Positions 1,458 through 59,725 of a stretch of 64,000 bases of DNA are shown here, in pieces (positions within the stretch are counted from its first letter, which is position 1; every line of letters starts with the position of its first letter). The notes beneath the pieces were generated by a model. It did no database searches and was not told where the DNA came from. It worked only from the letters and a program-made list of their open reading frames with translations. The DNA lies in the NCBI GenBank assembly GCA_015179045.1, contig WHUZ01000071.1, forward strand, positions 271,857-335,856, given 5' to 3'. Source of the DNA: Kalaharituber pfeilii (lineage: Eukaryota > Ascomycota > Pezizomycetes > Pezizales > Pezizaceae). The position numbers and the translations under genes are program-made.

Positions 1458-2171
1458 GGCCAGGCCCGCAACGCAACACAACACCTGCACATCTTTTTTT
1501 GTCATCCCTGCTCGAATGTTGACTGACATCTTGTTCCCACACTGTCAGTGAATCCTGCCCTTCCCCCCCCTACTCTCACACACACACTCTTCACACGAAC
1601 GCACTCGTTTCGTGCTGCTTTTCATTCAAGTCCATTCACCTACCTGAGGCTGAAATTCACTGGCCTGTCGTAGCTCTACAATCGTCTAGCTTGTGACGCC
1701 TGACGCAGCAGCCAGCATTCAGTTGTGCGTTGTTGCAGGCCTTCTCGCGGTTCAGGAGTTCTGTCAGGCCCCGTCCCACTCACATTCTACATAAACGAGA
1801 CAACTCGCATACCTTTGTCGAACCCCCTCCCACTCCTACACCCCCTTTCACCCCCCTTACATCAACGCAAGTCTACTCCATATATCCATTTCCTCTGTTC
1901 GAAGTTCTTAGTCACAACAACCAAAAATTTATTCCGCAACAACGCAATTTTGTTCGGATACCACCGTATATCTAGGGTTGTTGCCTTAGGGTTTTCGAGA
2001 ACGCAAACAAGAGGTTATCACTTCATTGAGAAGTACTACACAGCGAAACAGGCGGTTTCGTTATTTTTTTACGGAAGCTTTGGACCGAGTTGTTGGTGGT
2101 CTTGGAGAGTGAGCAGAGCTGCGAGCACACCGAGTTTTTTTGAGAGATTCGCAACTGTCGAGGTAGAAGAT

Positions 2172-5100
2172 ATGTCTGGTAGAGGTGGACGAGGCCGTGG
2201 AGGCGGCGACCGAGGAGGGAGAGGCGGCGGCCAGCGTGGTGGAGGTTATGAAGGACGAGGCGGTCGAGGAGGCGGATACGGAGGAGGAGGAGGAGGTGGT
2301 GGAGGAGGTGGTGGAGGTGGTTATGGGGGTGGTGGAGGCGGGTATGGAGGTGGTGGTGGTGGAGGTGGTGGATACGGTGGAGGAGGTCGCGGAGGCTATG
2401 GCGGCGACAGGGGCGGAGGAGGATATCGTGGAGGTGGAGGCGGCGGTAGGGGAGGACGACCATCGGCCGACTATGGCATCTTCAATCCCGGTCACCCGCC
2501 TATTGTTGACGAAAAGCTAAACTCCCAAGCCGATGCACTTGTCGCGAAGATTGTCAAGGAAGAAGGAAGCCTCCCGCGCCGTCCAGGCTTCGGAAAGGAT
2601 GGAATTCAAACCATTGTACGTGCCAACTTTTTCAAAGTTGAGCTGCCAAAGAGCCCGATCTACCAGTACGATGTGGACTTCTCGCCGAATGAGAAGAAGT
2701 CCGAGAAACGCCAGAGGCTGTTTGACTTGATGCAAACTACCGCAGAATTTAAGAGCCTTGTCCCAGATCCCGCATACATTGCTCATGACGCCTCAAAAAC
2801 GATCATTTCCGCGGTCAAATTGAAGGTTGACGACAAGGTTAAGAAAGAATTCCCAGTGAAATACTATGACGCCGATAGCGACAAACCTGGCGAGTATGAC
2901 AAGGAGTACCAGGTCTCCATTTGCCTTGTTCGCGAGATGAACTCATGGGAATTAGAAGAATATGTTGCTGGCAGAAGCATGGACTACGACTCTTCAATGA
3001 TTATCCGCGCACTCAATATCATCCTTGCTAAATTCCCTGCGACTGCTATTTCCCAAGATAAGAGGATTGTGAATTTTGGGCAGAACAGGTTCTTCATAAT
3101 CGAGAGGAGCCCAGTTGACTTGGGAACTGGATTGATTGCGTACAGGGGTTACTATTCGTCGGTTAGGCCGTCCTTTGGAAAGGTACTGTGCAATATCAAT
3201 GTGTGCACGGCGGCATTCTTTAAGCCACAAAACCTGGCTGGGATGATTGACGAAGTGTTTGGTGGTAGAGGGGGTATGGGTGGCATCCAAAAGAAGTCGT
3301 TGAATGGATTGAAGGTCAACACGACTTACATGGGCAGGAAAAAGAGGTTGGTTATCAGCGGCATCGGAGATAAGAATGCAAATGATGAGAAGTTTTTTTG
3401 GGATGAGGAAAACCAACAAGTCTCAGTGGCATATTTCTTCAAGAAAAGTAAGGTTTTCTTCTCTTTCTGTGTTTGTTTGTTGCCGCTAGGGGAGTAGATT
3501 GCTAATCTTACTTACAGAATACAATTACGATGTCAAACGGCCAGATCTCCCGTGTGTGTGGCGTCCTATGGGTGACAAGCGTGCATACATTCCTGCGGAG
3601 GTGTGCATGATTGTCGAAGGTCAAGTCTTCAAGTCCCAACTTACTGGAGACCAAACTAGTCGCATGCTGCAAGTTGCATGCCGTGCACCAAAGACAAATG
3701 CTGAGCTGATCACTGGCGAGGGCATGACTATCCTCGGACACAGGGGCGGGCCAAACCAGACTCTCCAGAACTTTGGCATGAAGGTAAGCGAACAGATGGA
3801 GGCAGTTTACTCGCGCGTTCTCCCCTCTCCACAAGTCAAGTACAAGAACACGACTGCGTCGATTGCGCCGAATTCTGCAGGATGGAATCTCCGTTCGTTG
3901 AAGTTCCCTGCATCCGGCACGCTTAAGAACTGGGGTGTGCTTGTCATCCGCGATAATCGCCCGACGGATTTCCAGTCCCCAGAGGCAATCCCCCCGGTGC
4001 TGGCTCAGTTCGTGAGCATGTGCAGGACGTCCGGAGTGAATGTCACAGATGAGCAGCCGCGATGCACCAAGGGCGCAGTTCTCCCGCCGCGAACCCAATC
4101 AGACCCGCTCCGCGACGGAGCAGCCAGAGCGATCCGTGACTCAATCCAGCATATCATTAAATCTCAGCGCAAGCCTGGCGCCACTGAGCTGCCGAACTTC
4201 CTTTTGGTGCTCCTGTCGAACGACGACAAGAACGTCTACAACCACATCAAGTACCTGGTAGACTGCGTCTTTGGGATCCCGACAGTCTGCTGCCAGACGG
4301 AGAAGATCACAAAGGAGAAGGGGCAGATGCAGTACCTGGGTAACATTGCGCTCAAGGTGAACTTGAAGACGGGTGGGAGGAACCATGAGTTGGGGGGTGA
4401 TGCATTGAAGATTTTGGGGAATGATTCGATTGTGTTGGGGGCGGATGTGACGCATCCGACGGCCAAAGTTAGTGTGAAGCATACGCCAAGTATCGCGGCG
4501 GTGGTGGGAAGCTTTGAGAATACTTATAGCTTGTATCCGGGATCTTTGAGATTGCAGAAGAGCAGACAAGAGGTACGATCTTTGTTTCCAACCCTCCCTT
4601 CTCCCCTTTTCCCCTTCTCCTTGCCCCTTCCCCCTTTCCCCTTCCTTTTCCTGAGCCCTCTCCTTCTAGCTCGTTACCCTGAACTTGCTAACGTGATCGT
4701 ACCACCAACCTAGATGATCGAACACCTCGACGAACAAGTCGCCGATCGTCTCCGCTTCTACCGTGCCAACAATCCCAGCAAAAAACTCCCGCAACGCATC
4801 TTCTACTTCCGTGACGGTGTCTCCGAGGGGCAATTCCAGATCGTCAATGAAGCTGAGCTGCCTCTGATCCGCAAAGCCTGCGCCGCCGCCTCGACCAACG
4901 ACCCATCTTACCGCCCTAAGATCGCAATCATCATTTGCGGGAAGCGTCACCATTCGCGGTTCTACCCTACCGATGACAGGCATACTGACGGGAAGGGCAA
5001 CTGTGCTCCCGGGACCGTTGTGGACCGTGGCGTGACTAGCGTGTGGGACCATGACTTTTACTTGCAGGCACACGTCGGGCTGCAGGGTACCGCGCGCTCG

Positions 5101-5522
5101 GCGCACTACTACGTGACGTATGACGACATGGGACTCTCCGCGGACGGGCTCCAGAAGCTGGTGCATAATCTCAGTTACTTGTTTGCGAGGGCGACGAAGG
5201 CCGTTAGTTACGTCCCGCCAGCCTACTATGCAGACATTTTATGCGAGCGCGGAAGGTGCTATTTGCAGGGATTGTTGAGTGGAAGGTCACAGCATGCGTT
5301 TGAGGGTAGTAGTACTGTGAGCAGTGAGGGGGGCAACGGGAAGAAGAAGGGTGGTGGTGGGAGGGGGGCAGAAGAGGGGGTAATGGTGGAAGTAGTGCGG
5401 AAGCAGATGCGGCGAGGAAGAAAATGGATGAGGAGGAGGCGGCGATGATTATGGCGGAGGCTCAGAAGCAGTGGGGAACTGGACCGAAGCCGGAGGTATC
5501 GAGGTATATGTTTTTCTTGTAA
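2172..5522 (+). CDS. Argonaute (RNA-silencing slicer), three exons, frameshift near the C-terminus
   Basis: Small-RNA-guided endonuclease of RNA silencing (QDE-2/Ago1 type). The exons are 2172-3447, 3518-4572 and 4714-5522. Intron 1 (70 nt) and intron 2 (141 nt) are GT-AG with CTAAT/CTAAC branch points. The ATG at 2172 opens an RGG/poly-Gly tail (residues about 1-95) typical of fungal Argonautes; the frame stays open back to 1725. N, PAZ, MID and PIWI regions follow. PIWI residues are visible: D735 in GADVTH, E777 in SRQE (last codon of exon 2), D811 in FRDGVSEGQ, and D951 in PPAYYAD. This is a DEDD tetrad, as in budding-yeast Argonaute, where animals have H in the last position. The exon 3 frame runs into an unrelated Arg-rich tail ending at 5448. 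The frame offset by one base, beyond the G6 run at about 5364-5369, ends in SRYMFFL and stop 5520-5522, a normal Argonaute C-terminus. A one-base indel is the simplest reading, giving about 1046 aa. Confidence 0.95.
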
Positions 5523-22198: not shown

Positions 22199-22210
22199 CA
22201 TTACCCAGCC

Positions 22211-22270
22211 TTTTTTTTTTTTTTTTTAATATCACATGACCCCGCTTGCAGCTGTTCGCCATGGCAGGGC
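22211..22270 (-). mobile_element. Hairpin-only retroposed LINE family B tail, 60 bp
   Basis: The target-site duplication is cattacccagcc (22199-22210) and cattatccagcc (22271-22282), 11 of 12 identical. The insert is 17 T followed by the complement of the family B terminal hairpin. It stops exactly at the GCCCTGCC base of that hairpin; no upstream LINE sequence is included. Confidence 0.9.
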
Positions 22271-22660
22271 CATTATCCAGCCTATTTATCGCCTTAATAG
22301 GAAGCGATCGCGAAGAACGATCGATCGGCGGAAGAGAGGCGTCTAACTCAGAGCTGGGCTGGTTACATGACTGCTCGATCCTATATAAATAACAAATTAT
22401 TGCAACGCTGCAAGAGAAGAGATGCTCTCGATCCTCAATTCCCGGGGCAAAATTGCTTTTCCGGAATTGAAGGATCCGTAGCAGGGTGGAGCTACTAGTA
22501 CACGCGCAGGTATGCATCAACATCTAATAACTATGAGGACAAAAGTATGGTAGTAAGTTTGTTCGAGCCAGCTCTAAGAACTACGTGTGGAGATACCATG
22601 GCTACAACTTCGTTTTGGCCTAGTATTACAGTACATCCTGGTTACATACAGTCAAACCTC

Positions 22661-22716
22661 CCTCGCCATAGCCCGTAGGGCGGCATGCGAGTATTGATAT
22701 ATAAAAAAAAAAAAAA
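22661..22716 (+). mobile_element. Hairpin-only retroposed LINE family A tail, 56 bp
   Basis: The 15-bp perfect target-site duplication atacagtcaaacctc lies at 22646-22660 and 22717-22731. The insert starts at the hairpin base (CCTCGCCATAG), continues through GCGAGTATTGATATAT and ends in poly(A). The target, TACAGTCAAACCTC followed by repeated ATATTGGAT motifs, resembles the end of a pogo-like DNA transposon, but no second end was found. Confidence 0.92.
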
Positions 22717-22731
22717 ATACAGTCAAACCTC

Positions 22732-45866: not shown

Positions 45867-45928
45867 GAACTACTACTGTTGAAGCGGCAGGTTGTAGTTC
45901 CAAGTTTTCTGGTAAAAGGGGCTTGCTC

Positions 45929-45960
45929 ATTAATGATATAAAAAAAAAAAAAAAAAAAAA
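45929..45960 (+). mobile_element. Minimal retroposed LINE tail: 11 nt plus poly(A)
   Basis: The perfect 15-bp target-site duplication aaaaggggcttgctc lies at 45914-45928 and 45961-45975. The insert is only ATTAATGATAT plus about 21 A. That 11-mer is the segment after the family A hairpin, as seen at 48340-48352 (complement) and 54923-54932. It is the shortest insertion in the window. Confidence 0.88.
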
Positions 45961-46067
45961 AAAAGGGGCTTGCTCTTTGTGCTAGAAGTGGCCCTGGTGG
46001 TGGTGGTTTTTCCTTTGGCACGGGCAGGTGGGTCTCTCTTCTTCATACTGGGTGACGCCGGAGGGAC

Positions 46068-48123: not shown

Positions 48124-48320
48124 TGTGCTGTGTCCTGTAACCGCCGCAATTAGTACCCTACAGGGCCACTGCATAGAACAGACGCCGCGCGCCGGTCCCT
48201 CTATGTACTTGCAGGAATTGAAAGTTTGTCAGCTAATGGTATTTATTAGGAATCAGAAGTTGTATCTAGCTCTGCAAATCTGCTTGAACGTGCTAAAGCG
48301 GCGCGGCACTTCCTTGCCTG

Positions 48321-48384
48321 TTTTTTTTTTTTTTTTTTTTATATATCATTAATCGCTTGCCGCCCTATGGGCTATGGCGATATA
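48321..48384 (-). mobile_element. Hairpin-only retroposed LINE family A tail, 64 bp
   Basis: The 10-bp target-site duplication tccttgcctg lies at 48311-48320 and 48385-48394. The insert is 20 T, ATATATCATTAATCGC and the hairpin complement, ending at GGCGATATA. A third tccttgcctg lies at 48441-48450, which may mark a second event. Confidence 0.85.
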
Positions 48385-48868
48385 TCCTTGCCTGTGGCGG
48401 GAACTGGCAAAGCATGAGCTGGGGAAATTACTTTATATCATCCTTGCCTGCACATTTAGATGAGTAGTTAAGCAGTAGCATTTCCCCTGATAAGCATGCG
48501 CGGCTAACGAATCATATGCACAGTACCACGGCAGGATGCGTCTTTCGACCGGCAAATTAAAACTTTGTGCTACGAAGATCTTAGCGACAATCGGCACAGG
48601 AGCCCTGGACATATATATCATATGTAGTCTAGACACGGCTGGCCCTGGCCACAACTATGTTTAGCAGTGCCCAAATCACTGTAATTTGGGGAGCATCTTG
48701 GATTAGAATTTCCCACGTACGTTTAAGTTTGACCGCTGGTTACAAGCTGAGATAAGCCCAGTGTTGCTATCAGCAGTGTTCACTTAAGCGAATCATAATT
48801 TACGGTACTAGGTGCAGTTACTCGCGATTAAAGCTCTGACATGAAGCGAGTACGACTAGTCCAATGCG

Positions 48869-49551
48869 CACATCGGCATCGCAGGCAACGAGGCGGCGGA
48901 CGTCGGAGCAAAAAAGGCGGCGGATAGAATAGGGAAGTCGGTGGTGACTGAAGGCGGATTGCGCCAGAAGTGGAAAAAACTGCGCGCAGCGGAGAGGAGG
49001 GAAGTGGGGTATGGGGGAGGGACAGTGATGAGGTGGAGCAGGGGGGCCGCGACGGCTTTCACCAGGCTGCGAACGGGGAAGGGAATGGGAAAGGAATGGG
49101 ACATTAGAGTGGGGAAAGCGGCGGAGGGGAGTGTGTGCAAATGCGGACAGGAGCAAACAGCGGACCACCTAGCGTTTAGGTGCGAAGAGGTAGAGTACCC
49201 GGAAGGATGGGGAAGGTGGGAGGATATAGACGAGAAAAAGTGGTTGGAACAGCAAGAGAACGGGGAGGCGGTAGACGTGCTGGGTGAATTTTTCGTTGCA
49301 TTGAAGGTGTTAAGGGGAGGGGTTGAAATTTTCGTTTGTTCGAAGGTGGCGGCGGAGGAAAGATGTAGCTATTTTCATTGCCTCGGAGAGGTGGGGCGGG
49401 GAGGGGTTGAGAGTTTCGTTTGTAGAGGAGGCGGCGGAAGTAGCGGTTAGAAAAGCCTGCCTCCGGGCTTTGAGGGTCTAGACCCAGGGGCCCTGCCTTG
49501 GCGAACAGCTGCGCGCGGGGTCATGTGATATAAGAAAAAAAAAAAAAAAAA
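48869..49551 (+). mobile_element. 5'-truncated LINE family B, 683 bp
   Basis: The 15-bp perfect target-site duplication gactagtccaatgcg lies at 48854-48868 and 49552-49566. The frame opens inside the RNase H end (HIGIAGNEAADVGAKKAAD). It continues through a basic region to a zinc knuckle, CKCGQEQTADHLAFRC (C-x-C-x8-H-x4-C), and stays open to 49450. The 3' UTR has GGGTCTAGACCC and the terminal hairpin, then TCATGTGATATAAG and poly(A). It is cleanly integrated and relatively young. Confidence 0.92.
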
Positions 49552-49566
49552 GACTAGTCCAATGCG

Positions 49567-50393
49567 GGGGAATATGCATGTATTTGTGTCCTGCTCTCCC
49601 TGTGTAATACAGGTCGGGATCAGCTGAGGCAAAGAACTAAGCAACATGCAAGTTCTTTGAATTTTTCGCGAAAATACAATGCTGGTATGACGTTGATCTG
49701 CAGCAAGCAGCTGAGGATAAGAAGCTGTGGCCTTTTGCACATGGGTGATGCTCAAACTTACGGAGCAATGTGCATCCTGGACACGGAACAGAACCGGCAG
49801 TTTGGTTTTGGTGTGCCAAGCGGGGATCATGTGGTCATGAGGCCACAGATCAATAAACCTTAATTCAAAGTCAAAAAGGTCGCAGAACTGCAGCAGTCGT
49901 TCAGCCGCAGTTATGAGCACATTCCGGAATGAATGTCAGCCAGAGAAGAATTGGCTTTGACTGATACATGTCTAAGCCACATACAAGTCATCATGCAATA
50001 AATCCTACACTAATGTGTAGATTTCCTACACCACACACCCTTGCGGGGAGATAATCTTATTTAATATTCAATATGCATGGGAAGCGGCGTTGAAATGGCA
50101 CAGTTCATTGATGGGTCATAATTTCATCCTGCGAATCTGAAGTTCATGATATGATCATGTTCCTTTAGATGCCAGGATTTCCCGCACCACATGCGGTCAG
50201 CATCTCAATACTTCAATCTTGCAGTTACGGGGCGGCACTTGGTTATGGATTTCTCAGTGACTAACCCCTTTTGTCATAACTCAACCGCATTTACAGGGCG
50301 CATAGCGTTCATGTTGCCGTTAAACCTCAGGACGACAATTAAGGTATACAGCAAGTTGGGCTATATCAACTGCCGCTGCAAGCAGGCTTGAAC
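49567..50393. other. Spacer, nothing recognised
   Basis: No gene or repeat supported between the LINE copy and the tandem duplication. Confidence 0.5.
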
Positions 50394-51029
50394 GTTTTCA
50401 GTACCTCCAGTCGAATCAGATACGCAACCAGACTGATGGGTTGAGAGGTCCAACACAAGAGGCTATGACCAGTTATTGCAATAGGTGCTGTTTGAACTTT
50501 AAAAGTAGGCTCGTGAGCACATAAATGATCAATATGAAATGATACCACATAACGTGATCCCTCCTTGACCCTCAAGTGCTGCAAACAAGGAGGAGACCCT
50601 AAACTCAGCCATAGATTCAAGTCCTAAATCTCGATCCGGAATACCTTAAGGTGAGAGTTCAGTTGGCATTTGACTTCGCTACCCTGTTCTTTCGTACATG
50701 TATCATACCCCGTTTTCAGTACCTCCAGTCGAATCAGATACGCAACCAGACTGATGGGTTGAGAGGTCCAACACAAGAGGCTATGACCAGTTATTGCAAT
50801 AGATGCTAGTTGAACTTTAAAAGTAGGCTCATGAGCACATAAATGATCAATATGAAATGATACCACATAACGTGATCCCTCCTTGACCCTCAAGTGCTGC
50901 AAACAAGGAGGAGACCCTAAACTCCGCCATAGATTCAAGTCCTAAATCTCGATCCGGAATACCTTAAGGTGAGAGTTCAGTTGGCATTTGACTTCGCTAC
51001 CCTATTCTTTCGTACATGTATCATACCCC
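50394..51029. repeat. Tandem duplication of a 318-bp unit
   Basis: The units 50394-50711 and 50712-51029 are nearly identical, beginning GTTTTCAGTACCTCCAGTCG and ending TACATGTATCATACCCC. Only a few substitutions are visible, so the duplication is recent. Neither unit contains a supported gene. Confidence 0.93.
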
Positions 51030-52929: not shown

Positions 52930-53086
52930 CGTATCCGATAGCTACACCCCGGCCCGTCATGTATGATCTTTGGCGTTGGTTCCAGGTCGCTCTTTCTCTT
53001 TGTGTCAAATTCGTTGCTGAGGGTTGAATTTAATTTTGTTCACTTTGTTTTTCTCCTGTGTACTTAGCTTCAATTATATGAGATAC

Positions 53087-53136
53087 TTTTTTTTTTTTTT
53101 ATCATTACTCGCGTGCCGCCCTATGGGCTATGGCGA
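53087..53136 (-). mobile_element. Hairpin-only retroposed LINE family A tail, 50 bp, in the BTB 3' flank
   Basis: The 12-bp perfect target-site duplication tatatgagatac lies at 53075-53086 and 53137-53148. The insert is 14 T, ATCATTACTCGCGTGCC and the rest of the hairpin complement, stopping at GGCGA. It begins 158 bp after the BTB stop codon, so probably lies in that gene's 3' UTR. Confidence 0.93.
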
Positions 53137-53148
53137 TATATGAGATAC

Positions 53149-54439: not shown

Positions 54440-54934
54440 TATGAAACTTCAGAAATATAACCTATCTTGGCGGCTGTGTCTGCTTCCGTGTTGCCGCTTA
54501 TTCCCTTGTGTCCTTTCACCCACATGACTGCGACGTCCAAGTTTCCTGTCTCGACTCTCCTTTCCCAGGCCTCCCTGACTCGCTGTGAGGCACCTTCGTG
54601 GTTAGGTTCTCCGTCGGCGGTGGAGACACCGAATAGGCAAATCCGACTCCCCCGAATGCCGGTGGTGCGGGAGAGCACCGGAAAACACAACACACATTAC
54701 CACAGACTGCCTACCATGGAAAGCTAGGATACCAGGCGGAATGGAAGACTTGATGAAACCAAAGGAAGCCGGGGATGGGGGGGACAAGCTGGCGGAGATT
54801 ATAAAGTGGGCCGGGGAATAGAGTGGCTGCATTAATTCCTTTTATTATCATTTTCTTATCAATTTCTTTCCATTGCATGCACTTAATAACATCGCCCTAG
54901 CGGCAAGCGATTAATGAAATAAAAAAAAAAAAAG

Positions 54935-54966
<32 letters not shown>

Positions 54967-55375
54967 CCGTCGGCGATTCTCTGGAGTTTGGTTATGGCTG
55001 TTTTGCAGTCGGTGATGATCAGTAGTTCATTCGCCGAGCTCTCCAGTGCTTCGCACATGGCGAGGAGCTCCGCGTCGTTGACGTTGCTCAATCGGCCTAG
55101 GTATTTGGAGGTCCGCTTCGGTGGGTGTGGAGTGTATGTTCCGGCCCCAGAGGCATCTTCTATTCGGCTGCCGTCAGTGTAGTGACTCGTCCATCCCTCA
55201 TCCTCGGCTAAGGCGATGGCCTCTTCCCACTCCGCCTTGGTAGTGTCTGCGGGGAGGGGGGTTAGCCTTGCTAGTGGGAGAGCCTTCCTGGAATGTCCGC
55301 TGCCAATTAGCAGCTGCAGTACAGCAGGAGCATGTCTGTATTTATAGATCATGCAGTATTCGTAATGATTGGCTA
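54440..55375 (-). mobile_element. LINE family A fragment interrupted by another LINE
   Basis: On the minus strand the RNase H frame runs from the right part (55352 downward: WTSHYTDGSRIEDASGAG, then ELLIITDCKTAITKLQRI). It resumes to the left of a nested insertion with PNHEGASQRVREAWERRV and MWVKGHKGISGNTEADTAAK. The frame ends at about 54440 with no 3' tail, so the 3' end has been lost. The nested insertion occupies 54620-54963. Confidence 0.85.
54620..54963 (+). mobile_element. Nested LINE family A copy, 344 bp
   Basis: The perfect 12-bp target-site duplication tctccgtcggcg lies at 54608-54619 and 54964-54975, inside the RNase H region of an older minus-strand copy. It carries the end of ORF2 (the CRWCG knuckle region) and a 3' UTR. 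It ends with the variant hairpin ATCGCCCTAGCGGCAAGCGAT, then TAATGAAAT and a long poly(A). Confidence 0.92.
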
Positions 55376-55393
55376 AATTGAGTAATTCCCCAT

Positions 55394-56322
55394 GCGATCC
55401 AGAAGGCAGGCAGGGAGGGAAAGGGAAAAACCGAGGAGGTGAGGAGAGTGGTGGATGCCGTGGCGAGGAGGAAGAAGAAGGGAGGGGACGCGAAAATGAT
55501 GTGGGTCAAGGCTCATATCGGAATTGCAGGGATTGAGAAGGCTGATGAGTGGGCAAAGAAGGGGACGGCGGTGGAAGGGAAAGAGGTGCCCACCGGGAGC
55601 GGGGTGCGCCAGAGGATTAAGGCGTGGAGGAAGGAGAGAAGGGAGGTGGAAGGTTTCGGGAAGGGGAAAGTAATGGAGTGGAATAGGACAGCGGTGTCCA
55701 ACTTCACAGCATTACGACTGGAGAGAGGAAGATGCAGGGTGTGGTTGAAGAGGATGGGAGCGGCGGAATCGGAGAAGTGCAGCTGCGGGGAGGCCCAGAC
55801 GGGGGCGCACCTAGCCTTCCAGTGCTGTCAGCAGAGGTTTCGCCCAGAAGGCTTTAGAGAATGGGGGGATATGGAGAAGAACTGGAAAAGGACAGTAGAG
55901 AATGGGGAGGAGTGGGATGAGTTGGAAAGGTTCTTCTCCGGGATCAGGTTCTAGGGCGCCGTGCGATTTGCCGTCGGGGAAGTTTGCTTGCCGGGGAAGT
56001 TTGCTTGCCGGGGAAGTTTGCTTGCCGGGGAGGTTTGCTTGCCGGGGAAGTTTGCTTGCCGGGGAAGTTTGCTTGCCGGGGAAGTTTGCTTGCCGGGGAA
56101 GTTTGCTTGCCGGGATGCGAAAGTGTAGAGAAGAGGGGAGGGGGGAGAGGGGGAGATATATAGTGGAGCCTCCCTGAGGCAGAAACCGGAAGGACCATCC
56201 GGAGGTTTCTGGAATCAGGTTGTAGAAGTAGATAGAAATTTCTTTGTTTGTTAAGCCTGTCTCCAGGCTTCGAGGGCTTGCCCAGGGACCCTGCCATGGC
56301 TTGGCGCTGCAAGCGGGGTTAT

Positions 56323-56356
<34 letters not shown>
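55394..56356 (+). mobile_element. 5'-truncated LINE family B, 963 bp
   Basis: The perfect 14-bp target-site duplication gagtaattccccat lies at 55380-55393 and 56357-56370. The frame stays open to 55954. It has RNase H end motifs (MMWVKAHIGIAGIEKADEWA), a basic region with RERGRCRVWL-like sequence, and the knuckle CSCGEAQTGAHLAFQC. The 3' UTR contains a 17-bp minisatellite (55976-56113), GGGCTTGCCC, and the terminal hairpin before poly(A). With an open frame and a perfect duplication it looks young. Confidence 0.93.
55976..56113 (+). repeat. 17-bp minisatellite inside a LINE 3' UTR
   Basis: Eight tandem copies of GGGGAAGTTTGCTTGCC with exact 17-bp spacing (TTTGC at 55983, 56000, 56017, 56034, 56051, 56068, 56085, 56102). 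One copy has GGAGG instead of GGAAG. It lies just after the ORF2 stop and is not seen in the other family B copies here. Confidence 0.95.
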
Positions 56357-59598: not shown

Positions 59599-59610
59599 GA
59601 GTTGGGATTC

Positions 59611-59673
59611 TTTTTTTTTTTATATATATATATATCATTACTCGCGTGCCGCCCTGTGGGCTATGGCGAGAGA
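59611..59673 (-). mobile_element. Hairpin-only retroposed LINE family A tail, 63 bp
   Basis: The target-site duplication is gagttgggattc (59599-59610) and gagttggaattc (59674-59685), 11 of 12 identical. The insert is a T run, an AT dinucleotide run, CATTACTCGCGTGCCGCCC and the hairpin complement ending GGCGAGAGA. No other LINE sequence. Confidence 0.9.
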
Positions 59674-59725
59674 GAGTTGGAATTCCGCAGCGCGGGACGT
59701 GACCTGCGGGGCTATGCTCAAGTTC

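Follow-up and report, generated by a model that had tools for sequence, protein, structure and literature searches.

In the stringent-type LINE/SINE pairs, such as those of UnaL2 and ZfL2, non-autonomous RNAs carrying the 3' tail of a LINE are mobilised by that LINE, as appears to be the case here. LINE/SINE tail pairing has been reported for the Tad1 clade (PMC4176376), and the fungal pairs with a shared tail include Mg-SINE/MgL and SINE2-1_BG/Tad1-24_BG (PMC3747384). For Mg-SINE and SINE2-1_BG, a tRNA promoter is listed in that paper, whereas the inserts described here consist of the tail alone. In human L1 and Alu, a conserved stem-loop near the 3' end has been reported (PMC5135761).

5'-Truncated LINE copies share with our inserts the target-site duplications, the poly(A) and a similar target preference. 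Here, however, the 5' ends also cluster at hairpin feet, besides scattering. In the MINE/MGL chimeras of Magnaporthe, which involve a fungal LINE, the LINE part has non-random ends and hairpins are predicted near the sites (PMC2104539). The reverse transcriptase (RT) of MGL is described there as changing template at 230-5461 nt from the 3' end, where it moves to a second RNA; the sites follow GCC, and the hairpins are upstream of them. In contrast, our inserts show no second RNA, and their hairpin is located 3' of the end. Tailless retropseudogenes of therian mammals likewise have duplications and preferred ends related to RNA structure; their preferred end is the 3' end, oligo(A) is missing, and the authors favour internal priming (PMC5322556). 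Exonuclease-resistant 3' fragments of the sfRNA type, in which the 5' end is set by RNA structure (PMC3968743), may serve as an analogy for the template proposed below.

LINE tails shared with SINEs are thus already known, also in fungi. What differs here is the lack of a head and a 5' end fixed at hairpin feet. In the open-access literature searched, we found no description of retroposons that consist of the tail hairpin only.

Hairpin-only inserts in the window and in the genome

The window is the whole stretch of 64 kb of fungal DNA that was analysed. It contains inserts of two families, A and B, each with its own terminal hairpin. An earlier note on this DNA had claimed that five inserts consist only of this hairpin and poly(A) between target-site duplications, and that their 5' ends lie at or near the hairpin base. 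Both claims were confirmed, with duplications of 11-15 bp and with the left borders of two inserts set at 48322 and 22212 (Table 1). Position 48321 is an A common to the poly(A) and the duplication, and the left border of that insert was placed at 48322. A linker of ~10 nt separates the hairpin from the poly(A) in all five. Long copies with duplications are also present in the window. Measured upstream from the hairpin foot, they start at 107 and 185 nt in family A and at 326, 620 and 893 nt in family B.

Table 1. Hairpin-only inserts and related features in the 64-kb window
Feature	Position	Strand	5' end relative to hairpin foot (nt)	Remarks
Hairpin-only insert, family A, 56 nt (hairpin, linker and poly(A))	22661-22716	+	+1	Inside a repeat end resembling a DNA-transposon terminal repeat
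Target-site duplication, left copy, ATACAGTCAAACCTC, 15 bp	22646-22660	+		Flanks the insert at 22661-22716
Target-site duplication, right copy, 15 bp	22717-22731	+		Flanks the insert at 22661-22716
Hairpin-only insert, family B, 59 nt	22212-22270	-	-1	Duplications 22271-22283 and 22199-22211, 13 bp, 1 mismatch
Hairpin-only insert, family A, 63 nt	48322-48384	-	+3	Duplications 48385-48395 and 48311-48321, 11 bp
Hairpin-only insert, family A, 50 nt	53087-53136	-	-1	Duplications 53137-53148 and 53075-53086, 12 bp
Hairpin-only insert, family A, 63 nt	59611-59673	-	+3	Duplications 59674-59685 and 59599-59610, 12 bp, 1 mismatch
Shorter insert, linker (ATTAATGATAT) and poly(A) only	45929-45960	+		5' end at the 3' foot of the A hairpin; 15-bp duplications 45914-45928 and 45961-45975
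Longer B copy, 3' tail, lineage B2	49489-49551	+		Copy starts 620 nt upstream of hairpin foot
Longer B copy, 3' tail, lineage B3	56287-56349	+		Starts 893 nt upstream; upstream frame resembles a LINE RNase H end
LINE frame fragment with RNase H domain	54897-55505	-		PF00075, E 3.8e-07

The repeat end that is split by the insert at 22661 looks like the terminal repeat of a DNA transposon, and its uninterrupted 25-nt sequence was found at 51 other places with at most one mismatch. An A insert in locus L003, ~10 nt longer, has a duplication similar to that of the 22661 insert (ATACTGTCAAATC and ATACAGTCAAACCTC, respectively). Since the duplications are alike, both inserts may be located in transposon ends of one kind. 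Elsewhere in the window, a 17-bp unit (CGGGGAAGTTTGCTTGC) forms a tandem array at 55941-56144, and 300 bp are directly duplicated at 50393-51010 (spacing 318, 98% identical). Argonaute-like frames were detected at 1704-5448; the best named match of such a frame was from Wilcoxina mikolae (57% identity over 39% of the query). The genes of the window resemble those of filamentous fungi, and on the basis of this one gene the host probably belongs to the Pezizales. Because of these frames, the fungus may have RNA silencing.

The genome (78,031,657 bases in 360 contigs) was searched with the two hairpins, and copies of every length were counted. Family A was found at 3650 places (26-nt pattern inside the hairpin, at most one mismatch) and family B at 2867 places (34-nt pattern, at most two mismatches), whereas the reversed A and B patterns gave 0 matches each. 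Judged by the duplication, 25 of the 124 sampled A copies with at most one mismatch were hairpin-only, which extrapolates to ~700 hairpin-only A inserts in the genome. In family B, exact copies with a flank unlike that of the LINE numbered 195 and 118 in two lineages described below.

A hairpin is predicted by folding for both families. The A hairpin has 9 pairs at -13.9 kcal/mol, and in two variants with linker 4 and 5 of 200 shuffles folded as well; the loosest fold was that of the 28-nt A core alone (16/200). The B hairpin has 11 pairs at -15.4 (11/200). Over 161 A copies, the foot pair was C-G in 131, A-T in 18 and T-A in 1, and the top inner pair was C-G in 151 and T-A in 7. The hairpin, with these two covarying pairs, is kept while the adjoining sequence varies among long copies. 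In tail-only copies, the median distance from the hairpin end to the duplication was 26 nt (A) and 22 nt (B), and thus an oligo(A) tail is present; in long copies it was 26 nt in both families. Identity with tailless retropseudogenes was rejected on account of this oligo(A).

A SINE with a head was also rejected. No pol III-type head (tRNA, 5S or 7SL) was seen in the inserts, which are made up of hairpin, linker, poly(A) and a few extra bases, and Rfam gave no match at the five window inserts. Like a SINE, family B does have a 3' tail in common with a LINE, since the B tail occurs on an element with RT and RNase H.

Distribution of the 5' ends

The reading covered 30 loci of each family, 60 additional stretches near listed A places, and the window. 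The A sample consists of the first 95 of 100 listed places (contigs C1-C11), and the B sample of the first 30 listed places (C1 and C2), each with copies met by chance and those of the window. Loci L001-L008 were excluded because they had been retrieved by similarity to a tail-only copy. Distinct copies dropped for a short flank were 1/162 (A) and 5/61 (B). After removal of duplicates, 161 A and 56 B copies were usable, of which 89 and 41 have a duplication. The loci extend 1-1.5 kb upstream, so that longer copies fall into the class without duplication (72/161 A, 15/56 B). The threshold in the main count was 9 in the hairpin zone and 10 elsewhere.

Inserts with a duplication that start between -6 and +7 nt from the 5' foot of the hairpin made up 34/89 in family A and 20/41 in family B. 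As a share of all usable copies, these hairpin-only inserts are 34/161 and 20/56. In family A, 33 of the 89 ends lie at -3 to +3, against 0.7 expected from the density at 4-300 nt. Two others are found at 4-48 nt (+7 and 16) and 28 at 49-258 nt, and the remainder are scattered to 1374 nt. In family B, 20 of the 41 ends lie at -4 to +5 (0.1 expected), one at 16 nt, five at 34-39 nt and 15 at 291-1423 nt. The prediction that the lengths would peak at the hairpin foot rather than form a smooth distribution was borne out in the sampled copies, and random 5' truncation without a preferred end point does not describe either sample.

When right flanks were swapped between copies, duplications appeared in the hairpin zone in 2/803 (A) and 0/274 (B) pairs, and outside it in 27/803 and 8/274 pairs. 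A few of the scattered end points of long copies are therefore probably due to chance. With a threshold of 11 everywhere, the hairpin zone still holds 28/75 A and 15/35 B ends. Chance or search bias was thus rejected as the cause of the peak, since the swapped flanks gave values near zero and the peak survives this threshold.

A scan for poly(A) yielded 84 inserts after removal of L001-L008 and duplicates: 43 start at the foot, 29 are longer, 5 start inside or 3' of the hairpin, and 7 are other, about three of these being tails missed by the search expression. The ratio of 43 to 5 is biased, because most loci had been chosen for a complete hairpin. The five ends inside or 3' of the hairpin can be set against 22 foot inserts that were not retrieved on purpose (15 A and 7 B, a hand count that includes the window's own five). 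Two of the five start at the 3' foot. Shorter inserts with duplications that consist of the linker or the hairpin 3' arm and poly(A) were seen at window 45914-45975, L038 ~1377, L105 ~329, L030 ~2500 and L082 ~1542.

Three hairpins are predicted in the 3' end of family B. A small one stands in the middle, between the terminal hairpin and an outer one (AAGCCUG/CGGGCUU). This three-hairpin tail is not clearly more stable than its shuffles, of which 46, 16 and 63 of 200 folded at least as well. In three lineages, the middle stem is GGAC/GUCC, GGGU/ACCC and GGG/CCC, respectively; since both arms differ together, it changes in step. The five B ends at 34-39 nt (5/41) form a second cluster at the foot of the outer predicted hairpin, and they come from two lineages. 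In addition, 20 of the 47 TC-type copies with a GG flank (see below) were read as a separate, selected sample. Ten have a duplication: seven of these start at 34-38 nt and three at the terminal foot (0, -1 and -4), and none elsewhere within the ~130 nt read upstream. The remaining ten are without duplication, and some of them are longer copies. No peak of ends was detected at the middle hairpin in the B sample or in these 20 copies.

Probable shared LINE machinery, sources and lineages

The 59 tail-only or second-hairpin inserts were compared with paralogous sites. For 12 of them, a paralogous site was found that lacks exactly the insert and one duplication, the best paralogue being 99% identical; for the other 47, no empty paralogue was present among the loci read. 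Two A tail-only inserts, at C6:195818 (L106) and C1:178267 (L040), interrupt the hairpin of an older A tail. Since the insert sits in that hairpin, the empty site is in these cases the family's own sequence.

The target preference of tail-only and long copies was compared by eye. In family A, C precedes the nick (position -1) in 23/34 tail-only and 34/55 long copies, and A follows it (position 0) in 19/34 and 33/55. In family B, the values are 8/20 and 8/16 for C, and 11/20 and 11/16 for A. The mean duplication lengths of tail-only and long copies are 12.5 and 13.0 (A) and 12.9 and 13.9 (B). Because target signature and duplication length resemble those of the long copies, the tail-only inserts were likely made by the same LINE machinery. 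The proposal of the earlier note that LINE tails are mobilised without the LINE, in two families, is supported by the duplications, the empty sites, the shared target preference and the sharp peak.

The reverse-transcriptase family gave 150 scored matches. One of these, at C90:258782-259525, falls within an open frame of 1248 codons. The stretch from C90:260300, assigned to this frame by arithmetic across 0.8 kb that was not read, contains the end of a frame nearly identical to another in which RNase H was matched; the three-hairpin B tail and poly(A) come next. A LINE with RT, RNase H and the B tail is therefore present. An A tail was found downstream of a frame whose matches to RNase H and zf-RVT are weak and fall short of the curated cut-off. 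To name this LINE as a member of the Tad1 clade would be to argue from the fungal host and the RNase H.

Other long A and B copies have a putative ORF1 frame directly 5' of the tail. No Pfam family was detected in the two frames taken for ORF1. Such copies are probable half-LINEs, for which HAL1 of mammals is a comparison. The HaTad1 names listed for Blumeria are another (PMC3747384). Putative half-LINEs of ~0.8-1.4 kb were seen at L028/L029 (C2:213728), L112 (C8:153854), L063 (C2:533018) and others, and four B copies start 1305-1423 nt upstream of the hairpin. The feature visibly common to the source elements is the tail.

Two lineages of family B were distinguished by exact copies. GGGGTC (TC type) has 195 copies with a non-LINE flank (HH) and 47 with a GG flank; GGGGTT (TT type) has 118 and 245. 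The tail-only share thus measured differs strongly (odds ratio 8.6, p 3e-32) while the hairpins are nearly the same; the HH and GG patterns miss tail-only copies with G in the flank, and the GG class includes some tail-only copies (3/20 read). The base at the hairpin foot was counted by hand in the first 100 listed copies of each class. Among TT copies with a non-LINE flank, it is G in 77, A in 19 and T in 4; among those with a GG flank, it is A in 92, G in 6, and C and T in 1 each. TC copies with a non-LINE flank keep G at the start position in 97. Where the duplication resolves the start of B tail-only inserts, 15/20 start at the same position, three one base later and two three bases later, and 8/20 have 1-6 added bases of non-LINE sequence.

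At the variable site GCA?GCG, the TC copies with a non-LINE flank have 46 C, 33 A and 20 T (100 listed, one G dropped, hand count), and the 47 with a GG flank have 22 C, 18 A and 7 T. Since both TC classes share a similar variant mix, the tail-only copies derive from several LINE sources, and at very different rates; some tail-only copies are, as noted, contained in the GG class. One master copy as the source was rejected, as the variant mix speaks against it. In family A, the variant TTGATAT was found in 8/34 tail-only and 7/127 other copies.

How the 5' end may be formed

The minimal retroposons are best accommodated by a template RNA in which the hairpin determines the 5' end, an explanation to which we give somewhat better than an even chance. 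Short polyadenylated RNAs consisting of the terminal hairpin, the ~10-nt linker and poly(A) would arise from the 3' ends of many LINE transcripts, and half-LINE transcripts would probably also supply them. The transcript would be trimmed from the 5' side, by 5'-3' decay or processing, to the foot of the stable hairpin, with ~0-3 nt left. The LINE machinery would recognise the hairpin and poly(A), and the insertion would be made by the LINE's own endonuclease and RT, the latter copying to the template end and often adding a few extra bases. Run-off addition of extra bases is known from work on other RTs. We infer that the end is made at the RNA level, presumably by a nuclease, and that the hairpin is what the protein binds.

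The RT moves inwards from the poly(A) and the ends sit at the 5' foot; thus, the whole hairpin was copied. Since the ends lie on the side where the RT exits the hairpin, we favour a template RNA ended by the hairpin. Such a template would account for the exit-side ends, the second hairpin, the extra bases and the lineage differences, which would reflect RNA supply. The earlier note had left a choice between an RT stop and a processed tail RNA. Mobilisation of the tail alone stood; the choice leans to the hairpin-set template, given the exit-side peak, the few ends inside or 3' of the hairpin, the second peak and the lineage shares. A stall of the RT on entering the hairpin was rejected, since it predicts ends at the 3' foot, where only two were seen in the poly(A) scan, against the 22 foot inserts not retrieved on purpose.

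Some observations count against a hairpin-ended template. The lineages that differ in tail-only share also differ at the foot base (G or A), so that the base itself might influence the RT. Extra bases can equally be added when an RT detaches early. The middle B hairpin has no peak, and the stability of the B tail is not clearly above that of shuffles. The start of B inserts is one base further in than the outermost RNA pair that could form, which a plain exonuclease stop would not predict, and the A ends spread over -3 to +7. Moreover, MGL is a fungal LINE with reported fixed sites of RT dissociation (PMC2104539).

The RT may instead let go of a long LINE RNA after copying the hairpin, with the hairpin as a handle or with the cDNA folding back and RNase H helping, and the unfinished cDNA would be joined to the target. 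We regard this as rather unlikely, though more probable than the other rivals. The peaks at the 5' foot of two hairpins and the RNase H of the LINE are in agreement with it. The same is true of the MGL RT, reported to leave its template at fixed sites (PMC2104539), and of stringent LINEs, which bind the tail stem-loop (PMC4176376). However, near-identical hairpins have very different tail-only shares by lineage, and the ends lie ~0-3 nt past the foot, where the copied arm would not yet have left the enzyme. Furthermore, MGL sites follow GCC with predicted hairpins upstream, whereas no GCC was found 5' of the A or B ends and the hairpin is 3' of the end; an MGL-type template-switch site was rejected on these grounds. 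The LINE bases 5' of the A ends are mostly AC (A in 40 and C in 44 of 52), those of the B ends are GG, and those before the second B hairpin are GAT or GGT in three long copies.

It is improbable that a longer cDNA folds as a single strand and that a host nuclease cuts its 3' flap at the foot before joining. The flap nuclease Rad1-Rad10 would be a candidate. Ends at the feet of two hairpins, together with target features like those of long copies, would be obtained in this way, but G-U pairs in the B foot and stem become mismatches in the cDNA. Moreover, the lineage with a cDNA stem one pair longer (the A allele) has fewer tail-only copies, and the lineage differences are left without explanation.

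Slightly less probable still is that the tail-only copies form an independent mini-SINE lineage, propagating from source loci that are themselves tail-only. This would suit the TC type, in which 195 of the 242 exact copies have a non-LINE flank and 3/20 of the GG-flanked ones are tail-only too, and the enrichment of TTGATAT in A tail-only copies. Against it, the two TC classes have a similar variant mix (a test weakened by the tail-only copies in the GG class), several A and B lineages take part, a promoter could not be accommodated in 35 nt, and B2 copies of greater length are present. Ordinary random 5' truncation, with the cluster at the hairpin due to chance or a search artefact, is very improbable: scattered ends do occur (55/89 A), but 33 ends fall within 7 nt against 0.7 expected, the swapped flanks give 2/803, the search pattern is blind to upstream sequence, and the sampled lengths are not smoothly distributed.

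Returning to the hairpin-ended template, a more specific proposal is tentative, and we hold it at a little under an even chance. The fungus would make discrete polyadenylated tail RNAs (~45 nt of hairpin and linker, plus poly(A)) by halting 5'-3' decay at the feet of terminal hairpins, and these would have been retroposed hundreds of times. No natural LINE template would be shorter, and a single hairpin would serve both to protect the RNA and to recruit the RT.

For genome annotation, such inserts of 50-70 bp are easily overlooked or mistaken for degenerate LINE ends. A template of ~45 nt plus poly(A) would be a small, defined substrate for work on target-primed reverse transcription. The positions of the ends make it testable whether broken templates or an early RT stop give rise to short LINE copies, and what role the tail hairpin has. 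The inserts are a natural experiment on what a LINE needs in its RNA, and the answer appears to be no more than a hairpin, a short linker and poly(A).
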